Source: a virus
Strand: one strand, 5' to 3'
DNA length: 24,398 nucleotides
IMG/VR virus record: IMGVR_UViG_3300031758_000555
Coordinates: 1 to 24,398 of that record
In this document: piece after piece, positions 2,095 through 23,991 of the stretch
Layout: every line of letters begins with the position of its first letter
Numbering within the stretch: the stretch's first letter is position 1
The notes under the pieces: model-generated
Database searches by the model: none
The model's input: the letters and a program-made list of their open reading frames with translations, nothing else
Told to the model about the DNA's origin: nothing
Position numbers and translations under genes: made by a program

Positions 2095-3155
2095 TGGCAA
2101 GTAAGTGATTTGTTACAATCAATAGTTTCAAAGTTGACTTCTAAATACCAACGTGAGCCAGTATCGTTATTTCTGTTTATTTCTCCTTGAACTTGATATT
2201 CTTTTCCATTGACATAAACGCTTCTGCCTGAAAAAACATTTACCAAATACTTGACAAATGATTGTGGCAGCTGATAGGTGCGTAATTGCCAAATCTCAGC
2301 ACTTTGTGACATCGTTGTTTTGAGCGATGTGCTTATTACCTCCTTAGTTATAGAAAAGTTTGTTTGCTCAAAGAACCCTGGTACTCGCACCTTATTTGAG
2401 TATTGAAAAGGAATGCCGCTTCCAAGGTTGTAATTATCACCATAATAGATATTAAAGCAATCATCTTTTGGGTAAATCGACTCAACCACAACCGTTCTGT
2501 TGTAATTTGTACAAGCCACCTCTTTAAAAGGCTCAGAGCAGAATGTGATGGTAGACTCAGTTATACCAAGGCATTGGCGAGTAGTGGTGAACGTAAATTC
2601 AAAGTAGAAACAAGTTTCTAATCCTTCGGCTTCTAAAAATTGACGAATTGCGTCAAGATTGAAACGAATCATCTGAATTGGATTAACCGAAGTGTTTCCC
2701 GTATAATCTGTTTGATTGTAAGTGCCCACATAATTTAAGTAGGCTATTGCATCAAACATACTCTCATCAATAACCAACTCTGTATCATCACAGCAGGTTT
2801 TTATTGCAAAAGTTGCAAATGCCGTATTAGTTGGTGACAATAGATTAGCGGGAAGCCATCCATGTTCACATCCTGTTTCATTTATTTCGTATGGCTGTTG
2901 GAATTGAAAATCAAAGGTATCTCCCTGTTGATATGGAGTCCAAAAAGGCATATCGTTGCCACATAGATTGCAGTTCCAAGAATCATCACAACTGCAAAGC
3001 ACAAATCCATTTGTTACAATCAATCCATTGCAAACACCACATATAGTTGTTATATCTTGACAAAAAACCCTTGAGATTGGGTCAGGTGGGTAGCAAATCG
3101 TTGTGGCATCACAAATTATTGCGTTTGAATATATATAGCTGTCAAATAATTCCAT
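2091..3155 (-). CDS. Cysteine-rich tail or tip structural protein (354 aa)
   Basis: I do not recognise a named family. The 354-aa product is rich in aromatic residues, Thr, Asn and Cys. Its N-terminal 70 residues contain a zinc-ribbon-like set of cysteines: C39/C42, C54/C56 and C62/C65. The rest reads as beta structure with many short polar turns, as in phage tail tip or fibre proteins. It follows two other large tail proteins in the late operon (18 bases after the previous gene) and its stop overlaps the ATG of the probable portal gene. A role in the distal tail or host contact is inferred from position and composition only. Confidence 0.7.
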   Translation of the reverse strand: MELFDSYIYSNAIICDATTICYPPDPISRVFCQDITTICGVCNGLIVTNGFVLCSCDDSWNCNLCGNDMPFWTPYQQGDTFDFQFQQPYEINETGCEHGWLPANLLSPTNTAFATFAIKTCCDDTELVIDESMFDAIAYLNYVGTYNQTDYTGNTSVNPIQMIRFNLDAIRQFLEAEGLETCFYFEFTFTTTRQCLGITESTITFCSEPFKEVACTNYNRTVVVESIYPKDDCFNIYYGDNYNLGSGIPFQYSNKVRVPGFFEQTNFSITKEVISTSLKTTMSQSAEIWQLRTYQLPQSFVKYLVNVFSGRSVYVNGKEYQVQGEINRNNDTGSRWYLEVNFETIDCNKSLTCQ

Positions 3156-3173
3156 ACTTCAAAGATAATTGTT

Positions 3174-6100
3174 TTATGGGCATAGAGCATTACCAAGTTT
3201 AAATGTTGCAGTATTAGTCATGTTAGTTCCTGCCTTTGTGACTATACTCCATTCTCCTGAAGTTAATCCAGACCATACAAAAGAAAAAGAACCACTTGTT
3301 GTTCCAATAGGAAGAGTAAGCGTTGGGATTCCATTTACAGTAAATTGACCCATATAAAGTTCAATTATTCTTGTAGTTGGAACATTAAATGAATATTCAA
3401 TTACATATGTTTCTCCAACAACAGGGAATGTAGTTTCTCCAACCTTACTCGATATATACAAAAACCTTGAAGCATTTGTGTTGTTAAATGTGACTGGTAT
3501 TGTATCTCCAAGCACAAGAATCGGCATTGTTAAATTGCTACTGCTATTAATCCTGTCGTGACGAATGAAATACTCGCAAACAACTGCTGCTTCAGGGAAA
3601 CTGATGTATCCGCAGAAACGATACTTCCCATTATCAAAGTTAGGAGCATCGAGAACAACAGAGGCTTTAAAAGTAACAGGGTCAAAAGCCGTGTCCATTG
3701 AAAGCACAAGCGGATTGTTTAACTCACTCATGCCCCAAAGACTTAGAGCTTCATTATTTTCAACAATAGTTGGGAATCCAAACGGGTCTTTTTCCATAAA
3801 GAAGATGAAGTTACCCTCTCTATCCGCTTCATAAGTAAGTCTAATCGCGTCCCAATCTGCAAAACAAATTGGTGCTTCAATCTCTTGATAAAGACCTGTA
3901 ATCTTATCCTTTCCCTCTATAACAACATCGGTTATTACTTGGTCGTATCCTCCGTTGTTAGGCTCAATCTCAATAGCGTTTACTTTAAAAGCTTTCACCG
4001 TTTTCCAAAAGAACGGAACACCAATTTGAGGGAATAAGTCAAACTCAAAGGTGTATTCAAAATAAACGTCTTCATTTGTCCAAGTCTGAGTAGCTAAAGC
4101 ACTCGTTATATATGAATTTGTAAGTCCACCCGCAGGTGTTCTGTTTAGATATGTAGCTGTATCTGAAGTGCTCACTTGACCTGGCTGAAAAGGAATGTAT
4201 TCCCAAGGCACACGAATGTTTCTAATAGACGTAAGAACATCATCTCCTATGCTTGGGCCAGCGTCTGCAACAATCAGGTTATTGTAGTTATGGAAGTTTC
4301 CTGGATAGGCATAATCCCTTTCTGAATAGTGTGTTTCATATTCAAAGAAAGTTGTTTTGCCCACAGTTGGAAAATTGTCTTTGCGCTTATAAATCTTCAG
4401 TCTAACAGACTTTAGTTGTCTCGGCCAAAATAAATTATCTACCCCCAAATCGGCAAGGCAATCACCAAAATCACCTTCAGATAAAGTCAAGTCATGCCCA
4501 ATTCTTTCTTTAGCAACAGGCTGAAAGCATTCTGTGTTTGTCTTTTGCCAATATTGAACAAAGTTTGAATCAAAGTCAGGAACACAATCACAATCCATAT
4601 CGGGGAAACGAGTAACCCTTATTTCTTCAGATAAGAAGGTGTTTACCATTTCTCCGTTAGAACCATAAACGATTGCGGCCACACGATAAACCGAAGTTGG
4701 ATTGACGCTTGTTCCTACATAAAGAAAGCACTCCCAATAAGCACCACTTAAATATGGAGTACCTCCAGGAGCTACAAGGTGATTATTTAAAACCGCAGTT
4801 CCTGGATAAGTAAGAACTCTGTAACGAGATGAATCAGTAGCGGTTAAAAAGTCAACCGTATCATCGCTTGCCGATGTATCAAACAAGTGATAAACTATTA
4901 CAGGCGCAGTAGCCCCATGAATAGGAGGGACGATGACTTTAAAGGTTATTCTTGTTGGTTCAAGAACAGAAAAGTTATTTACAACTCCATTCGCTCGTGA
5001 CAATGTGAACTGCGGAAGTAAAAACTCAGAAGCCGCATTATTGATTCCTTTATTGTAAAATCTTGCGGCAAAGTTTGAGCAAGTTATTTGATTACAGGCA
5101 AAAGGAGAATCACCCACAAGCGTTGCGGGGTCACTCATGTAAAAAGCTCCTGACAAATACTTTTTATTGCTATTGTAGACCGATGGGAATGTGTTTGTCC
5201 AATCTGAAGAAGTCGATAAAGTTGTCCTTCTGACTTTTGGTGCGTTATTCCAAAGCAGATTGGTTATGAAGTTCTCATAATCTTGAATCAAGTAAAAAGT
5301 AAACTCTACATTGAAATAACCATTAATAGCATCAACTGGTCTGAAATAGACTTCCCAATTTTTTAAGTTTAAAGCATTAGATGTTGCTCCATTAAGAGTC
5401 ATCTGCTGAGCGATTCCATCAGGATGCGCACCCGATAAATACTGAATGTAGTATCCTGTCGGCAGTTGCTGATTGAGTTCAAAAGGTGATTCGCAATCAA
5501 AAATGAATAAAGCAGGATTGAATTGAAGCCTAAAACCTGTCACCAAACCAGGCTCATATCGCATATTGTAAACAACAGTCTTCTTGTCTAAGAAAGAGGC
5601 TTTGCTGTACAATACATCGGGAGAGCAAAATCCTGAACTTGGACTTAGATATCCGCCATCTGTTTGGATTTCAATATCTAAGCAACAAAGACAATCGCAA
5701 GGTTCTTCAACAGCAGTTCCTACAATATCAATTATAATGCTTGAACAAGCTCTAATCGTAGTTGTGCAATCAGGAGTTTCAGAAGGAGAGGTAGGTGTCC
5801 ATTCTAAACATACTTGCGCACTTCCATATGCGGGAATAATAGTTGCTATTGATGGCGTTTGTATTGGCTCAGGAGAACCGCAACCTGATGTTAGAACCTC
5901 AATTTCAATATCTGTAAAAGATGTATTTGCAACAGTTATACATTGAACATTGGTTACACCAACCTGTGTTCCTGTAAAATCAAAAGTTGTAGACAAAAAC
6001 ATATCCTCAACATCTACACAGCTGTGATTAAAAGTCCAAGAAAGGTCATCACCGTGTTCATTGGTCACAATAGTTCCTTCCCAAGAAACAGGAGTTGGAA

Positions 6101-13990: not shown

Positions 13991-15268
13991 TTATTGCTGT
14001 TTTAGATATTTGACAAAGTTACTATGAAAAGACCACAAATAATAGCGGAAGCAGTCAAGCAAGTGAGTCTTTGTTGCGTCTCTTGCCTTGTCAATTGCTC
14101 CTAATTCATTACTTTCAACAGCCATTAAGTCACCTACCAAGAATTGACAACTTGCATCAATCAAAAAGTCAGGGTGTTTTTCAAGTAATGAGTTAAGCAG
14201 GACGCGTGAGTTCTTAATAGATGGGTTAAATGATGGCACTCTGAATGAGCTGCGAGTGATTTGAAGCTGCTCTTTGATAATCATGTAGTAGTTCATAGCA
14301 CCTTTGGTCATGGCTGAGCGGTTTGCCCCTGACGCATCACCTGTAACTATGAATGGTGTATTGCCATACTCAGTCTTAATCGCTTCGCATAAAGCAAAGA
14401 TGTCTGAGTTGCGCAGTCTAAACTCTTTGAGTATCCTAATCTTACCGCCATAGTGCTGGGCAGCTATGCAAGTAATTGGGTCTACGTTAAAGTCAAAAGA
14501 CAAGTAAAGGTCTTCATTCGCGTTGTAGCTAAGATTTGGTCTAACGGTCTTATTCTTGTCAAAGGCATAGGCAAATGGTCGGTCAACATCAACGGCATCC
14601 CAATTACCATCTACGAAGATTGCACGAGTAATTTCATCCAGGTTATTCAAACTCTCAATGTAGTCTTCAGGCAACAAAGTATTATCAGCCATCGTAGCAG
14701 GTAGATAAAAATGCTTATCAGGCATAATCCCTTCTACATAGGGCTTGTAGAATCTTGTTTTAGTCCAATTTTGGGAAGGATTGCAAGTAACAAAGATGAG
14801 TTTAGGCGGCATTGGCTTGATGATATTACGCCCACAGCGTAGGATAGCTTTGTTAAAAGTCTTCTCTTGTAATTCCTGCCCTTCTTCTAAGAAAAAAAAG
14901 TTACCTTCCAATCCATCAAACTGAGTCAAGTCTTTATCGTTTTGGAAGTTTTCACTTATAAACTGAAGCTCACTCCCATTTTTAAATATCACAAGCTTGT
15001 CTTGTTGGTTGTATTTCTTGACAAAAGATTTTGGGCATAGCTTAAAAAAGCTTTTGATAGATGTCTTTTTAAGACGTGGTAAACTTTCCCTTACTACAAA
15101 AGACCTACTCCCAGGGTAAAACTTGGCAAGCATAATAGCAATAGCCATTGTTACATACGTCTTCCCACCACCCGCTGCTCCTCCGTACATCAAGTAATTG
15201 TAGTTGCCGCTAAGCGCAGCATCAATAAACTCTTCTTGCTTTGGAAAAGGCTCAAATGCTACACCCAT
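13991..15268 (-). CDS. terL: Terminase large subunit (425 aa)
   Basis: This is the ATP-driven DNA packaging motor and headful or cos nuclease. The ATPase part shows a Walker A motif GGAAGGGKT (residues 29-37), a Walker B motif FFFLEEG (124-130, catalytic Glu 128 or 129) and the coupling motif TCNPS (161-165). The C-terminal RNase H-like nuclease has its expected acidic residues in YLSFDFN (D259), VTGDASG (D311) and HLLDCFRY (D405). The length of 425 aa is normal. The gene overlaps the end of the small upstream ORF by ten bases and ends one base before the next gene. It is in the same operon as the probable small subunit, two genes upstream. Confidence 0.97.
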   Translation of the reverse strand: MGVAFEPFPKQEEFIDAALSGNYNYLMYGGAAGGGKTYVTMAIAIMLAKFYPGSRSFVVRESLPRLKKTSIKSFFKLCPKSFVKKYNQQDKLVIFKNGSELQFISENFQNDKDLTQFDGLEGNFFFLEEGQELQEKTFNKAILRCGRNIIKPMPPKLIFVTCNPSQNWTKTRFYKPYVEGIMPDKHFYLPATMADNTLLPEDYIESLNNLDEITRAIFVDGNWDAVDVDRPFAYAFDKNKTVRPNLSYNANEDLYLSFDFNVDPITCIAAQHYGGKIRILKEFRLRNSDIFALCEAIKTEYGNTPFIVTGDASGANRSAMTKGAMNYYMIIKEQLQITRSSFRVPSFNPSIKNSRVLLNSLLEKHPDFLIDASCQFLVGDLMAVESNELGAIDKARDATKTHLLDCFRYYLWSFHSNFVKYLKQQ

Positions 15269-16844: not shown

Positions 16845-16870
16845 TAAAAAAGCGCCCGTTTCGGGGCGCT
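16845..16870 (-). terminator. Intrinsic terminator of the amidoligase unit
   Basis: On the minus strand a perfect 7-bp stem AGCGCCC/GGGCGCT with a CGAAAC loop (GAAA closed by C) is followed by a run of T. It lies 29 bases after the stop codon of the amidotransferase gene and separates this unit from the terminase operon. Confidence 0.88.
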
Positions 16871-16898
16871 CTTTCAATCTGGCGGTGTTTGGTTAGTC

Positions 16899-17762
16899 TT
16901 ACCATAGTTCGAAGGTGTACGGGCTTGCCTTGCTGCTCGGCGGGCTTGTCAGCAGTCTTTCGAGTTCTTCTAAGTCATAGGTGTTGTATGTTCTCGCCGC
17001 CTCTTCAACTTCCCAAAGAAAAGAAACGTCGTGTGTATCGCATGCAAGTGCTTCGGCTATGTTTTCGGCGGTTCTATATGTCACTCCTGTAAAGTAGTTG
17101 CGCAAATAACTCATGTTCTCCGCTTCCATTTCGTGGCGGTGGTTATATTCTGACGGGCTCAATATGGTCTTTGCTTTGCTCTTGGTGTACTTGCTTGCGT
17201 ACTTATCTATTCGGGTCGTTCCGTGGTATGAATAGCGGCTCTGCTGGTGGCTGTCGTTGCTGTACCATGTATCGCCATTCCATGTTCCCGCCTGCTCGTT
17301 TATTATCGTGTAACGGCCTGTTGATTCAAGAAAAACTAACTTGCTCCCGCTGACATAGCTCGCTATTAGTTCCCGGGTTGTTTCGCAGGCGAGAAAGTTA
17401 GCAGGCAACTTTTGCAACATATGGTTGAATTGGGCCGTGTCGCTGTGCGTCTCGTTTCCAAGTCCTGCTATTACTCCGTTATGAACGAATGACAAGTTGT
17501 TGTTTACCTGAAAAGGGTGCAAGTTGTCAAGGGTGCGTGCTCCTGACGTCGCTATTCTGAAGTGCAGTACAATTGGCTGCTTGTTCTTTGGTCGGATGGT
17601 TTGGTATGTCTTTAGCAGTTCGGCGCGGTCGTATGTTTTGAACGTCTTAACTTGGCCGCGTTCAATCCATATCAGGCCCGCTCCCTCGGGGTTGTTGTTC
17701 CATGCTGTGTTGATGGTTGCCGCGTTTAATTGGCTCCGCTTGTTTAGTATTGCTATACACAT
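16899..17762 (-). CDS. Class II glutamine amidotransferase (287 aa)
   Basis: The N-terminal domain is an Ntn-type glutaminase, which removes ammonia from glutamine by means of an N-terminal cysteine. C2 comes directly after the initiator Met (MCIAIL). The arginine motif is HFRIATSG (R69), the oxyanion motif is FVHNGVI (N95, G96) and the aspartate motif is SDTAQF (D108), matching GlmS/PurF-type domains. Residues from about 190 on form a charged helical C-terminus without a synthase domain, so ammonia or a glutamyl group must be passed to another protein. The amidoligase is encoded just upstream, 44 bases away, and a cyclotransferase before it; a terminator follows. Asparagine-synthetase or GlmS function is excluded by size. 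Substrate unknown. Confidence 0.88.
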   Translation of the reverse strand: MCIAILNKRSQLNAATINTAWNNNPEGAGLIWIERGQVKTFKTYDRAELLKTYQTIRPKNKQPIVLHFRIATSGARTLDNLHPFQVNNNLSFVHNGVIAGLGNETHSDTAQFNHMLQKLPANFLACETTRELIASYVSGSKLVFLESTGRYTIINEQAGTWNGDTWYSNDSHQQSRYSYHGTTRIDKYASKYTKSKAKTILSPSEYNHRHEMEAENMSYLRNYFTGVTYRTAENIAEALACDTHDVSFLWEVEEAARTYNTYDLEELERLLTSPPSSKASPYTFELW

Positions 17763-17806
17763 AGATTTGATGTTGTTACTTGTTGTTGTTGTGGTTCTGG
17801 GTTTGA

Positions 17807-19189
17807 TTAAAACAGGGTGGTTTGTCCATCTTGCGGGTCTATCTGTTCGAACTTGCGGGTGTAACGTATTACACGCGCGCTGAGGCGCTCAAATACTTCT
17901 GGCGTGTATACCTTTAGAAAGTGTTTCTTGAGTGCGTTGTGGAGGTTATAAAAGGCCTTGCGGGGGTTGTCTGTCTGGTGCTCTAACATGAGCGCAATTA
18001 ACTCCGTTCGCCATATCAGGTTGTCTACATTCTTAACTGCCGAGAATATACGGAACTCAATCCTGTTGCCAAGTATGTTAATGCTCTGGTATCTGTCGCG
18101 TTCGGCTTTCATTTTGTCAATGCTCTTTGCCGAACAAAACGATACATTGTCGGCCCTATTCGGGTACATTGCATGGAGCAAAGGTGTATAACCTTGAATG
18201 CTGTTGTATAGGCTCAACCCGCTGGTGTTCTCTTGGCTTAGATGGATATGCCCGCCGCAATTGCTTGAATAGGCCGCGTTGACATGCTGGGTCAATACTT
18301 CGCATCGCTTCAACATTGCTTCAATCTTCTGGGGCTGCAATTCTAACGGCGGGCTGATTAATTCGTAGCCTGTTGAGCTATCAAGACTCCCGTCTCTCTC
18401 CTTTCTCCATTTCGGGTGCTTGCTGTATAGGTCGCGCAACTTTACGCTGTACTTGGCTTCTTCGTCTTCCTTCTCTATTTCGTAGCCTATTAAATACTCG
18501 CTTCGCTCTCCTTCTGGGTTGAAATATTGCGCGGGTTGGCTTTGTCTGTGATGGTAGTTGTCGATATAAAGTGAGTCACTATCTTCCTCCTCTCCGTGCC
18601 ATGTTCCATCCTCCCACTGATAGCAGTCACTTTGATAGTCTACTTCGTTTGTGTCCTCATTCAAACACAGGTCGTAATAATACAGGGCGCCAATATCGTA
18701 GTACGACCCGTCAAAGTAGTATAGTTCGTTTGCGTCAATTGCGCGCTCGCTCCATTGCTGGCGGCGTGGGGTTCCCCATCTGGTTCCCGTTCTTACTTCA
18801 TAGGTATTGGCTGCCGTTCTTGCTTCGTAATATTCGCAATATTCCATCTCTTCGGCTTCCTCTTCTGTTATCCATTCGCCTTCTAACGTCTCTATCTTTA
18901 CCTCTTCTTCTTCCTCCTCTTCTGGCTCCTCTTCGTGTATCTCCCAAGCAAGCGGTCCCGCTTCTTTTTCGGCTATCGTGTAAAGGGTGTGTCCGTCGCT
19001 CGCGTGCTCGGTTTCAGTGAGTACAATTGTAAGTTCTGGCGCTGCGTTCACTATCGCCCGGGCTGCTCTCTCGGCTTCCTCGTGAACGAATAGGGGCTGT
19101 TGTATGCCTGCAATAATTGACGCGGCGAATGTTTGGTTGGTGTATTGGTTTGATACACTTAACCATGTGAGGGTGTTTGTTGTGTTCAT
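17807..19189 (-). CDS. Putative amidoligase, COOH-NH2 ligase of the GCS fold (460 aa)
   Basis: The C-terminal half carries the motifs of the amidoligase family related to glutamine synthetase and gamma-glutamylcysteine ligase: GYEIE (235-239), ERDGSL (264-269), GYELISPP (274-281), CGGHIHLS (311-318) and NRIEFRIFS (375-383). The acidic, His and Arg residues in these motifs normally bind Mg-ATP and activate a carboxylate for amide formation. The N-terminal 230 residues are extra: a small alpha/beta part, a long acidic run (about 86-119) and a Tyr/Trp/Asp-rich segment (150-200) that resembles a degraded zinc-binding module. Flanking genes encode a gamma-glutamylcyclotransferase and a glutamine amidotransferase, so glutamyl peptide or amide chemistry is likely. 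The leader holds ACACAAACAC just before ATG 19189. Substrate unknown. Confidence 0.84.
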   Translation of the reverse strand: MNTTNTLTWLSVSNQYTNQTFAASIIAGIQQPLFVHEEAERAARAIVNAAPELTIVLTETEHASDGHTLYTIAEKEAGPLAWEIHEEEPEEEEEEEVKIETLEGEWITEEEAEEMEYCEYYEARTAANTYEVRTGTRWGTPRRQQWSERAIDANELYYFDGSYYDIGALYYYDLCLNEDTNEVDYQSDCYQWEDGTWHGEEEDSDSLYIDNYHHRQSQPAQYFNPEGERSEYLIGYEIEKEDEEAKYSVKLRDLYSKHPKWRKERDGSLDSSTGYELISPPLELQPQKIEAMLKRCEVLTQHVNAAYSSNCGGHIHLSQENTSGLSLYNSIQGYTPLLHAMYPNRADNVSFCSAKSIDKMKAERDRYQSINILGNRIEFRIFSAVKNVDNLIWRTELIALMLEHQTDNPRKAFYNLHNALKKHFLKVYTPEVFERLSARVIRYTRKFEQIDPQDGQTTLF

Positions 19190-19208
19190 CTTGTGTTTGT
19201 GTTTGGGG

Positions 19209-19556
19209 TTATTGTGCTGCTGCTGGTGTTGGTGCTGCCATGTAAATTTGAACGGGTACCTGTTCGCCCGTTTCGGCGGTTATCACTTGAGACTCTACCC
19301 GAATGTATAGTTCGGTTTCGTACTCATCCAATATGGCGAGCTCCTCGGCGGTTACTTTGTAGGCGTGGCCATAAACTACCGACTCGGTATCAAATACAAG
19401 TGACGGGTAAAAATTGCCGTCGGTCGGGTCATATACATTGCGCACTATCTTAAACCCTTTCAGGGTGCAAATAGGGCCGTTTAACGTGCGGCCGATTAGC
19501 TCGCGCTGTGTGTGTGGCTGCTGGAGTGTGCCGTAACAAAAAATTGTGTTTTGCAT
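19209..19556 (-). CDS. Gamma-glutamylcyclotransferase (AIG2)-like protein (115 aa)
   Basis: The protein shows the AIG2/GGCT fold signature: FCYGTL near the start (residues 6-11), followed by the usual basic helix (QRELIGR), a mid-protein GHAYKVTAEELAILDEYE and an Arg after Tyr (YIRVE). E80 in LDEYE is at the position of the catalytic glutamate of this family, which cyclises gamma-glutamyl groups to release 5-oxoproline. The start chosen is ATG 19556, right before the first strand; a longer frame starting at 19631 would include promoter and leader. It is first in a unit with the amidoligase (19 bases after it) and the amidotransferase, and may cut or trim gamma-glutamyl linkages made by the ligase. 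Confidence 0.87.
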   Translation of the reverse strand: MQNTIFCYGTLQQPHTQRELIGRTLNGPICTLKGFKIVRNVYDPTDGNFYPSLVFDTESVVYGHAYKVTAEELAILDEYETELYIRVESQVITAETGEQVPVQIYMAAPTPAAAQ

Positions 19557-19633: not shown

Positions 19634-19786
19634 TTTACTGTACTTTTTACTTTACTTTTTCTTTGCTTCCCCTGTGTGGCGCGGGTTCCGTTTCAAATTA
19701 TTGATAATTGTTAATTTTCTTGGCGCTTGGTTCTGGCTTCCTCCCGTGCGTGGCGAGGGTGAACGGCGGGTGAATGTACGCGGGCC

Positions 19787-19887
19787 CGTATGCGTGCGCT
19801 TGCGTGTGTACGTACGTGTGTGTGTATGCGCGTGTGTGTACACGTGTGCGGGTGCGTGCGCGTATGCGTGTGCGCGTGTGCGCGTAT
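19787..19887. repeat. Alternating pyrimidine-purine tract (GT/GC/AC), Z-DNA-prone
   Basis: Bases 19801-19850 alternate strictly pyrimidine-purine for 50 nt (mainly GT, CG, TA and CA steps). Shorter alternating runs flank it (19787-19799 and 19853-19887), separated by single phase breaks. The tract is far richer in G+C than the adjoining phage DNA. Confidence 0.85.
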
Positions 19888-19897
19888 TATGGATCTG

Positions 19898-20073
19898 TCG
19901 AAAATGCGCCTATATGCCCCTGTCGAAAACATAACTCGCCTATGAGCGTGCGCTCGAAAATGCGCCTATGAGCGCGTTGTCGAAAACACAGGTGTGCCTA
20001 TATGGGTGTATCGAAAACACGCATGCCCCTATACGCACCCGTCGAAAACACGCCTATATGTGTGCGTCGAAAA
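19898..20073 (+). repeat. Seven-copy TCGAAAA iteron-like array
   Basis: TCGAAAA occurs at 19898, 19923, 19954, 19980, 20011, 20042 and 20067, with distances of 25, 31, 26, 31, 31 and 25. Five copies continue with C plus mostly AC or GC and two with TGC; six are followed by a CCTATA or CCTATG word before the next copy. The sequences between differ but keep these anchors. The unit lengths and the drift of reading frame argue against coding. Probable multiple binding sites for an initiator or regulator. Confidence 0.8.
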
Positions 20074-20129
20074 CGCAACTATTTTTACTTTAGTAAACGA
20101 AAAAAACGAAAAAAAAATTAAGAAAAAAC

Positions 20130-23124: not shown

Positions 23125-23991
23125 ATGAACAGCATTGAAAAAGCAGCAGCATTTGACATTGAACGTGTCAAGAATTATTTGAGGAGCATGAATCTGGCTT
23201 CTAACCTGACTCAGGCAGAGGTTACGCAGTTTATCGAGATAGCACAGGGATTTGGTCTTAATCCATTTAAAAGAGAAATCTACGCAAGTAAGTATGGCAA
23301 CAACTTTAGCGTGATTGTAGGTTATGAGACTTATATCAAGCGTGCAGAGCGTAGCGGTCGTTTGGCTGGGTGGAATGTTACAACAGATGGTAAATTAGAT
23401 GACGGAAGCCTGAAGGCAATTATTACGATTCACCGAAATGACTTTACTCACCCTTTTGTGCATGAGGTTTTTTACTCAGAATATGTACAGAGAACAAAGG
23501 AAGGTCGCCCGACTAAGTTTTGGGCCGATAAGCCTTACACCATGATTAAAAAGGTGGCAATGGCTCAAGGGTTTAGACTTTGCTTTAGCGATGAGCTTGG
23601 TGGTATGCCTTACACGGCTGATGAACTTCCCGACCAGGTTGGGCAGAATCAAATCGTGATTGAGGCTGTTGACCTGACTTCTGTTAAGCAAGAGATTGAA
23701 GATTGTCGCCAAATGGATTGCCTTGCTGAGATTTGGAAAAACAATGCTAATCTTCACTCTAATGAAGAGTTTAAAAACCTTGTAAAGGCTCGTAAAGAAA
23801 AGATTGCGGCAATGGAGAAGGAAGACAGGGAAGCAGACGCTGAGTTTTTAAGAAGCGAGGTAATCTTGCAAAAGATTGATGACGCTAAGACAGCAGATGA
23901 GGTAGTTGAGATTTTGCAGAATGAGGAAGACCCAGAAATCTTAGAAGCGGGCATGAGACAGATTGAACTATTTACAAATTCAAATCAATAA
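23125..23991 (+). CDS. RecT/Bet-family single-strand annealing protein (288 aa)
   Basis: The N-terminal 190 residues match the RecT/Bet family (phage recombination protein Bet), which anneals single strands during replication and recombination: LTQAEVTQFIEIAQGFGLNP, FKREIYASKYGNNFSVIVGY, a central WNVTTDGKLDDGSLKAIITI, and KPYTMIKKVAMAQGFRLCFS near residue 140-155. The rest is a charged helical tail ending in an acidic patch, as usual for these proteins, where SSB and partner contacts lie. A short AT-rich gap with TATCTTTATATTT precedes the gene (41 bases from the previous stop). No exonuclease (RecE or lambda Exo type) is visible in the window; it may follow on the right. Confidence 0.92.
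   Translation: MNSIEKAAAFDIERVKNYLRSMNLASNLTQAEVTQFIEIAQGFGLNPFKREIYASKYGNNFSVIVGYETYIKRAERSGRLAGWNVTTDGKLDDGSLKAIITIHRNDFTHPFVHEVFYSEYVQRTKEGRPTKFWADKPYTMIKKVAMAQGFRLCFSDELGGMPYTADELPDQVGQNQIVIEAVDLTSVKQEIEDCRQMDCLAEIWKNNANLHSNEEFKNLVKARKEKIAAMEKEDREADAEFLRSEVILQKIDDAKTADEVVEILQNEEDPEILEAGMRQIELFTNSNQ

Follow-up and report, generated by a model that had tools for sequence, protein, structure and literature searches.

A phage gene cassette built on a glutamine synthetase-fold ligase and a class II glutamine amidotransferase, predicted to act on amide bonds

Results

Three neighbouring genes at positions 16899-19556 of the viral DNA studied here (IMG/VR record IMGVR_UViG_3300031758_000555, positions 1 to 24,398; the whole of this stretch of 24,398 nucleotides is called the window) lie on its minus strand and encode an AIG2/GGCT-like gamma-glutamyl cyclotransferase (GGCT), an amidoligase of the glutamine synthetase (GS) superfamily and a class II glutamine amidotransferase (GATase) of the N-terminal nucleophile (Ntn) type. 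The original prediction had named the same three enzymes in the same place, and both Pfam matches and conserved residues bear this out. The three genes very probably belong to one pathway that makes or breaks amide bonds, and what is conserved of it in this branch of ligases is the ligase-GATase pair, of which GGCT is an optional, non-random partner.

The ligase aligns with the amidoligase family by profile (PF12224, E=3.2e-7, 30.9 bits against a curated cut-off of 22; phrog_7469 of PHROGs, an amidoligase enzyme, 3.9e-7) as well as by fold. Its AlphaFold (AF2) model (pLDDT 87.0) gave 22 PDB fold matches at E<=0.001, every one of them to GS or to gamma-glutamylmethylamide synthetase (GmaS), the best at 7.8e-6, and weaker matches included YbdK, Dop, PafA and plant glutamate-cysteine ligase (GCL). 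Compared by sequence, the ligase profile had no match in the PDB at E<=10. Within a catalytic domain of approximately residues 230-450, E237, E239, E276, G312, H314, E378 and R380 are invariant across 50 viral homologues, and D266 and R345 nearly so. The ExE, E, H and ExR of this set would correspond, by order and motif, to the metal-, ATP- and substrate-binding residues of GS-type enzymes, and the protein is predicted to be an ATP-dependent amide ligase of that superfamily. Ahead of the catalytic domain, residues ~95-208 are modelled with high confidence as folded, Cys-poor, aromatic/acidic beta modules, whereas the region is Cys-rich and zinc-ribbon-like in distant homologues (L012, L123, L129, L132 and the ligase of phage Tesla); the Cys-poor modules may derive from zinc ribbons, or may bind the substrate. 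A Glu-rich run, EEEPEEEEEEEVK (window 18850-18960, ligase residues ~78-97), modelled with low confidence, looks like a disordered acidic linker (~79-93) that joins the N-terminal segment to these modules.

The GATase scores weakly against PF13230 (E=2.9e-5, 23.6 bits, cut-off 23), and its class II Ntn assignment is backed, in spite of this, by the AF2 model (pLDDT 89.6) and by its best PDB fold match, the glutaminase of E. coli GlmS (E=2.5e-7), with EgtC and PurF next. C2, H67, R69, G74, H82, P83, N95, G96 and D108, the class II set, are invariant across 50 homologues, so that the nucleophile (C2), the glutamine-binding R69, the N95-G96 oxyanion hole and D108 are all kept. An additional helical region (~203-272) lies at the C-terminus. 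GGCT scores above the cut-off of its profile (PF06094, E=9.7e-17); its YGTL loop (Y8, G9, T10, L11), G47 and the catalytic E80 are invariant in six phage GGCTs, and the closest solved structure by sequence is 2g0q, Arabidopsis AT5G39720. The two active-site residues singled out beforehand, C2 of the GATase (50/50) and E80 of GGCT (6/6), are therefore real and conserved, and the predicted structures place the ligase in the GS fold and the GATase in a GlmS-like Ntn fold.

The conservation of the pair was seen in the neighbourhoods of 94 viral contigs, 43 found with the ligase as bait and 51 more with the GATase. Ligase and GATase genes are both present and adjoining in 87 of them, in many phage types; the seven exceptions comprise six that stop at a contig edge or ~160 bp or less from one, and L055, which carries a ligase fragment. 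No other family is common to all 87 neighbourhoods, the next commonest occurring in 20. GGCT, on the other hand, is found in just nine of the 50 whole contigs that bear the pair. The genes do co-occur in many other phages, but the idea that what is conserved is a set trio is therefore rejected. Two further partners of known amidoligase clusters are rarer still in these 50 contigs, the RimK ATP-grasp occurring in one and PF14395 in none.

Even so, GGCT does not seem to fall beside the ligase by chance. An unrelated 15-mer served to collect 42 control contigs; GGCT occurs in two of these, and PF12224 in the same two and no others (p=0.001 for the overlap, Fisher), the genes lying ~700 bp apart in one and ~48 kb apart in the other. 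The frequency of 9/50 in pair-bearing contigs compares with 0/40 in the ligase-free controls (p=0.004) and is less distinct against all 42 controls (p=0.06), statistics that come from small samples of related sequences. Moreover, GATase and GGCT are fused as one protein in three phages (MW202828, C75C1 and L058). In a separate arrangement, found in five loci (L092, L095, L097, L103 and L104), one GATase is bracketed by two PF12224-like ligases.

Seventeen PF12224 loci of named phages, picked for their resemblance to a small number of bait proteins, were compared as well. Nine have both GATase and GGCT, four GATase only, three GGCT only (Bacillus 055SW001, Geobacillus GR1 and a Faecalimonas phage, where no GATase was detected), and one, Porphyromonas phage 019a, has neither within 6 kb of its PF12224 gene. 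Over these loci, GATase and GGCT look exchangeable beside the ligase. Among the hosts named for the related phages are Gram-negatives, Firmicutes and Actinobacteria.

The trio is horizontally acquired, mobile phage cargo. Its GC content is 0.47-0.50, against 0.36-0.40 in the flanks. Seven contigs retrieved with RecT as bait (74-98% identical to the RecT of the window) served as close relatives, and TerL is 94-95% identical in all seven; the ligase, however, occurs in only one of them (L003, contig 3300034104_004198), and in the other six, some of them partial, the stretch from the terminase-side genes to the early region holds different genes, GP88 (PF17338) and DUF932 included. Such genes of the variable site are seen at L151 6115-6918, L152 4812-5540 and L153 3876-4877 (GP88 PF17338 proteins and one DUF932 protein). 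Between the window and L003, the proteins of the trio share 46, 59 and 71% of their amino acids, compared to 94% for TerL, and pN is 0.19-0.36 for the trio against 0.04 for TerL. In the trio pN is nevertheless well below pS, and dN/dS is 0.24 for GGCT, dS being saturated for ligase and GATase. The different genes of the relatives, together with a divergence that exceeds that of TerL whilst pN stays well below pS, point to a variable site and to a maintained cargo. That the trio is a decaying passenger with no function is barely credible on these figures: that it occurs in only two of eight close relatives, the window counted among them, is what a passenger could show, but the three open reading frames are intact, all catalytic residues are kept and the unit has its own terminator. 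An origin of the ligase branch in host genomes was also rejected, no relative being found in genome contigs with short exact peptide patterns, an insensitive search.

Rapid divergence, and a site whose genes are exchanged between relatives, would also suit an anti-defence or defence module, in which the trio would modify or unmodify a component of host immunity or protect the phage genome. We consider this decidedly improbable, since none of the three proteins has a match among PADLOC models, no known anti-defence gene adjoins the trio, and a variable site by itself is no proof of an immune role. A known anti-phage defence system can be rejected on the PADLOC result for the three proteins.

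The unit lies between the packaging genes, represented by TerL, and a rightward early region, represented by RecT (Table 1), in agreement with its supposed placement between packaging operon and control region. The intergenic gaps are 19 nt (GGCT/ligase) and 44 nt (ligase/GATase). Of the promoter and terminator that had been attributed to the unit, the terminator stands, as a strong hairpin with a 12-bp stem, a T run and -18.1 kcal/mol by direct folding (a generic terminator scan did not list it), whilst the promoter is plausible: a TTG-N22-TATATTTG match precedes the GGCT start by 45 nt, but is weak on its own, as matches of this type number 10 in the window versus 4.75 expected, about twice chance. 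The gene starts are preceded by A/C-rich leaders with no evident Shine-Dalgarno sequence, and these leaders, with the promoter type, suggest a host among the Bacteroidota.

Table 1. Positions of the trio, its putative signals and two flanking marker genes in the window
Feature	Positions	Strand	Details
GGCT (AIG2/GGCT-like, first gene)	19556-19209	minus	115 aa; PF06094
Ligase (GS-superfamily amidoligase, PF12224)	19189-17807	minus	460 aa
GATase (class II, Ntn)	17762-16899	minus	287 aa; PF13230
Intrinsic terminator, 3' of the GATase gene	16846-16875	minus	12-bp stem, T run
Candidate Bacteroidota-type promoter, TTG-N22-TATATTTG	19633-19601	minus	pattern scan
TerL (packaging side)	13991-15268		PF04466
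RecT (rightward early region)	23125-23991		PF03837

Window 19780-20090, in the interval that parts the trio from the early operon, has an alternating purine-pyrimidine tract, GTGTGCGCGT, and after it at least six repeats of the GTCGAAAAC type, spaced ~25-60 nt apart (six matches with at most one mismatch, against 1.44 expected). Sequence resembling this region is also present in L003 and L153, and the region is a candidate for iterons, an origin or an operator.

Discussion

With the enzyme classes, the intact active sites, the ligase-GATase pairing, the association and fusion of GGCT and the cargo status all computed, the cassette is predicted to be a two-component amide-bond enzyme, consisting of a GS-fold ligase and a dedicated class II Ntn GATase, with GGCT as an optional addition. 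What such a cassette would do is a matter of which bond is made and which is broken, and the version that we tentatively favour, somewhat short of an even chance, is a gamma-glutamyl one, where the ligase adds the group and the GATase and/or GGCT remove it. In this scheme, the ligase would activate a carboxylate with ATP and join it to an amine, most likely giving a gamma-glutamyl amide; the Ntn enzyme would hydrolyse off the gamma-glutamyl group, and GGCT would free it as 5-oxoproline. The outcome would be a cycle of protection and deprotection, or of tagging and removal, like those of EgtA/EgtC, PuuA/PuuD and BtrJ/BtrG, with a small amine, an amine of the cell envelope or of nucleic acid, or a protein as candidate acceptors. 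A more elaborate form of it, in which the ligase would use its N-terminal modules to bind macromolecules and tag their amines reversibly, with the Ntn amidase and GGCT as two unrelated erasers, is improbable.

The obvious alternative is glutamine-dependent amidation, where ammonia from the GATase would be channelled to the ligase and a carboxylate of host or phage, e.g., in the stem peptide of peptidoglycan, turned into an amide; the cell wall would be altered and other phages perhaps excluded, GGCT being a side partner. The near-obligatory pairing of ligase and GATase and the complete class II glutaminase site both suit an ammonia channel, and the span of hosts makes a general target plausible. 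Two later papers (PMC10580990, PMC11318856) attribute to Iyer et al. 2009 the suggestion that phiEco32 uses its amidoligase and GATase for cell-wall modification and superinfection exclusion, and they show that the original prediction was right in crediting Iyer, Aravind and colleagues. Amidation, however, leaves no obvious task for GGCT and does not account for the three phages with ligase and GGCT where no GATase was detected, and we regard it as possible, if rather unlikely. The gamma-glutamyl version is preferred over it because GATase and GGCT are each found beside the ligase without the other, because the two are fused in some phages, because larger clusters add enzymes of the PF07722 family (that of gamma-glutamyl hydrolase and PuuD), which catalyse the same type of reaction, and because no characterised GS-fold ligase is known to us to be supplied with ammonia by a class II GATase. 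The PF07722 proteins, seen in the clusters of CW02, T4S1 (an oyster phage) and an Alcaligenes phage, would bring the unrelated folds that can cleave gamma-glutamyl amides to as many as three per ligase.

This preference draws on genome context and analogy, which is not proof, and several points weigh against it. No substrate, product or phenotype is on record for the cassette; GGCT is absent from 41 of the 50 pair-bearing contigs; and, if both GATase and GGCT merely removed gamma-glutamyl groups, one of them would be redundant. The residues that the GATase has in common with GlmS fit the production of ammonia from glutamine equally well: its fold matches both GlmS, a glutaminase, and EgtC, an Ntn enzyme of the GATase class that removes a gamma-glutamyl group (PMC6374457), and the conserved residues are not shown to discriminate between the two. 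The argument from exchangeability is built on 17 loci picked in the way described above. Finally, the TM-scores of the fold matches are low (~0.27), partly as the ligase is multi-domain, and with alignments of such a long range the models support a fold class and no fine detail. As for the particular targets proposed earlier (peptidoglycan, a defence protein or the virion), no evidence was found for or against any of them.

The enzymes could also act separately, on free glutamine, gamma-glutamyl peptides or glutathione-like thiols, as auxiliary nitrogen or thiol metabolism that helps the infected cell. For a phage whose genes include those for GATase, amidoligase, a glutathione synthase and GGCT, an eLife paper proposed such a role and observed that growth was promoted in the host and in P. 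stutzeri (PMC10945688); its available passages describe no enzyme tests. We find it quite unlikely for the window, as a pairing far beyond that of any other neighbours and the GATase-GGCT fusions point to one shared pathway, and a ligase of bulk metabolism would hardly be expected to have so large an added N-terminal region, one whose relatives are zinc-ribbon-like.

The kind of cassette described here was predicted before and its function is unproven, and the trio and its exact gene order already exist in cultured phages. For the PF12224 amidoligases, which are scattered through phages, the synthesis or modification of peptides or cell walls has been predicted since 2009, and the literature that we found on them shows a substrate for none. 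The problem can now be reduced to a core of two genes, ligase and GATase. A larger version is the cluster of phiEco32, LUZ24-like and CW02-type phages, with a PF14395 COOH-NH2 ligase, a PF12224 ligase, a class II GATase, an ATP-grasp enzyme and AIG2. It has the PF12224 ligase, GATase and GGCT in common with the window (gp9, gp3 and gp16 in CW02; ORF23, 25 and 29 in the LUZ24-like phage UFV-P2, whose set is reported as amidoligase, GATase, ATP-grasp and AIG2, PMC3890496), whereas no PF14395 or ATP-grasp gene is seen adjoining the trio in the window, which is part of a genome. As these extra partners are not seen, the five-gene cluster is rejected as the home of the trio, which is related to it and not a member of it. 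In Aeromonas phage LAh_9 (L271, 11106-12627), the amidoligase cluster has genes for PRPP synthetase and nicotinate phosphoribosyltransferase close behind it.

Closer in arrangement are the Arthrobacter phages Salgado (gp97-98-99) and Ottawa (gp64-65-66), with the order GGCT-ligase-GATase exactly as in the window; they differ in their distant sequences, in a GATase that matches PF13522 best (PF13230 in the window), in their Actinobacterial host and in lying beside replication genes. The Salgado proteins were named AIG2-like (gp97), amidoligase (gp98) and GTPase domain protein (gp99) (PMC5513430), and the sequence record has gp99 as a glutamine amidotransferase. MW202828 and C75C1 have the same three enzymes as the window, but with GATase and GGCT fused. 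In Methylophilales phage MEP402 (gp06-07) and Mycobacterium phage Tesla (gp108-109) the ligase is directly followed by the GATase, as in the window, but no GGCT adjoins them and their ligases have Cys-rich, zinc-ribbon-like segments in place of the Cys-poor modules. The Tesla (L275) gene at 2483-3844, annotated as glutamine amidotransferase, is really the amidoligase (profile E=2.5e-21), the true GATase being its neighbour at 3926-4825.

Beyond phages, the nearest likeness is to cellular pathways in which a ligase makes a gamma-glutamyl amide and a second enzyme removes the group: those of ergothioneine (EgtA/EgtC) and butirosin (BtrJ/BtrG) synthesis and that of putrescine use (PuuA/PuuD). EgtC is among the fold matches of the window GATase. 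These are characterised small-molecule pathways, and their likeness to the trio is at the level of fold class. Phages of laboratory hosts carry the phage counterparts, Tesla with the pair and Salgado with the trio in the order of the window, and as cultured models for testing function they make the question of the substrate open to experiment.

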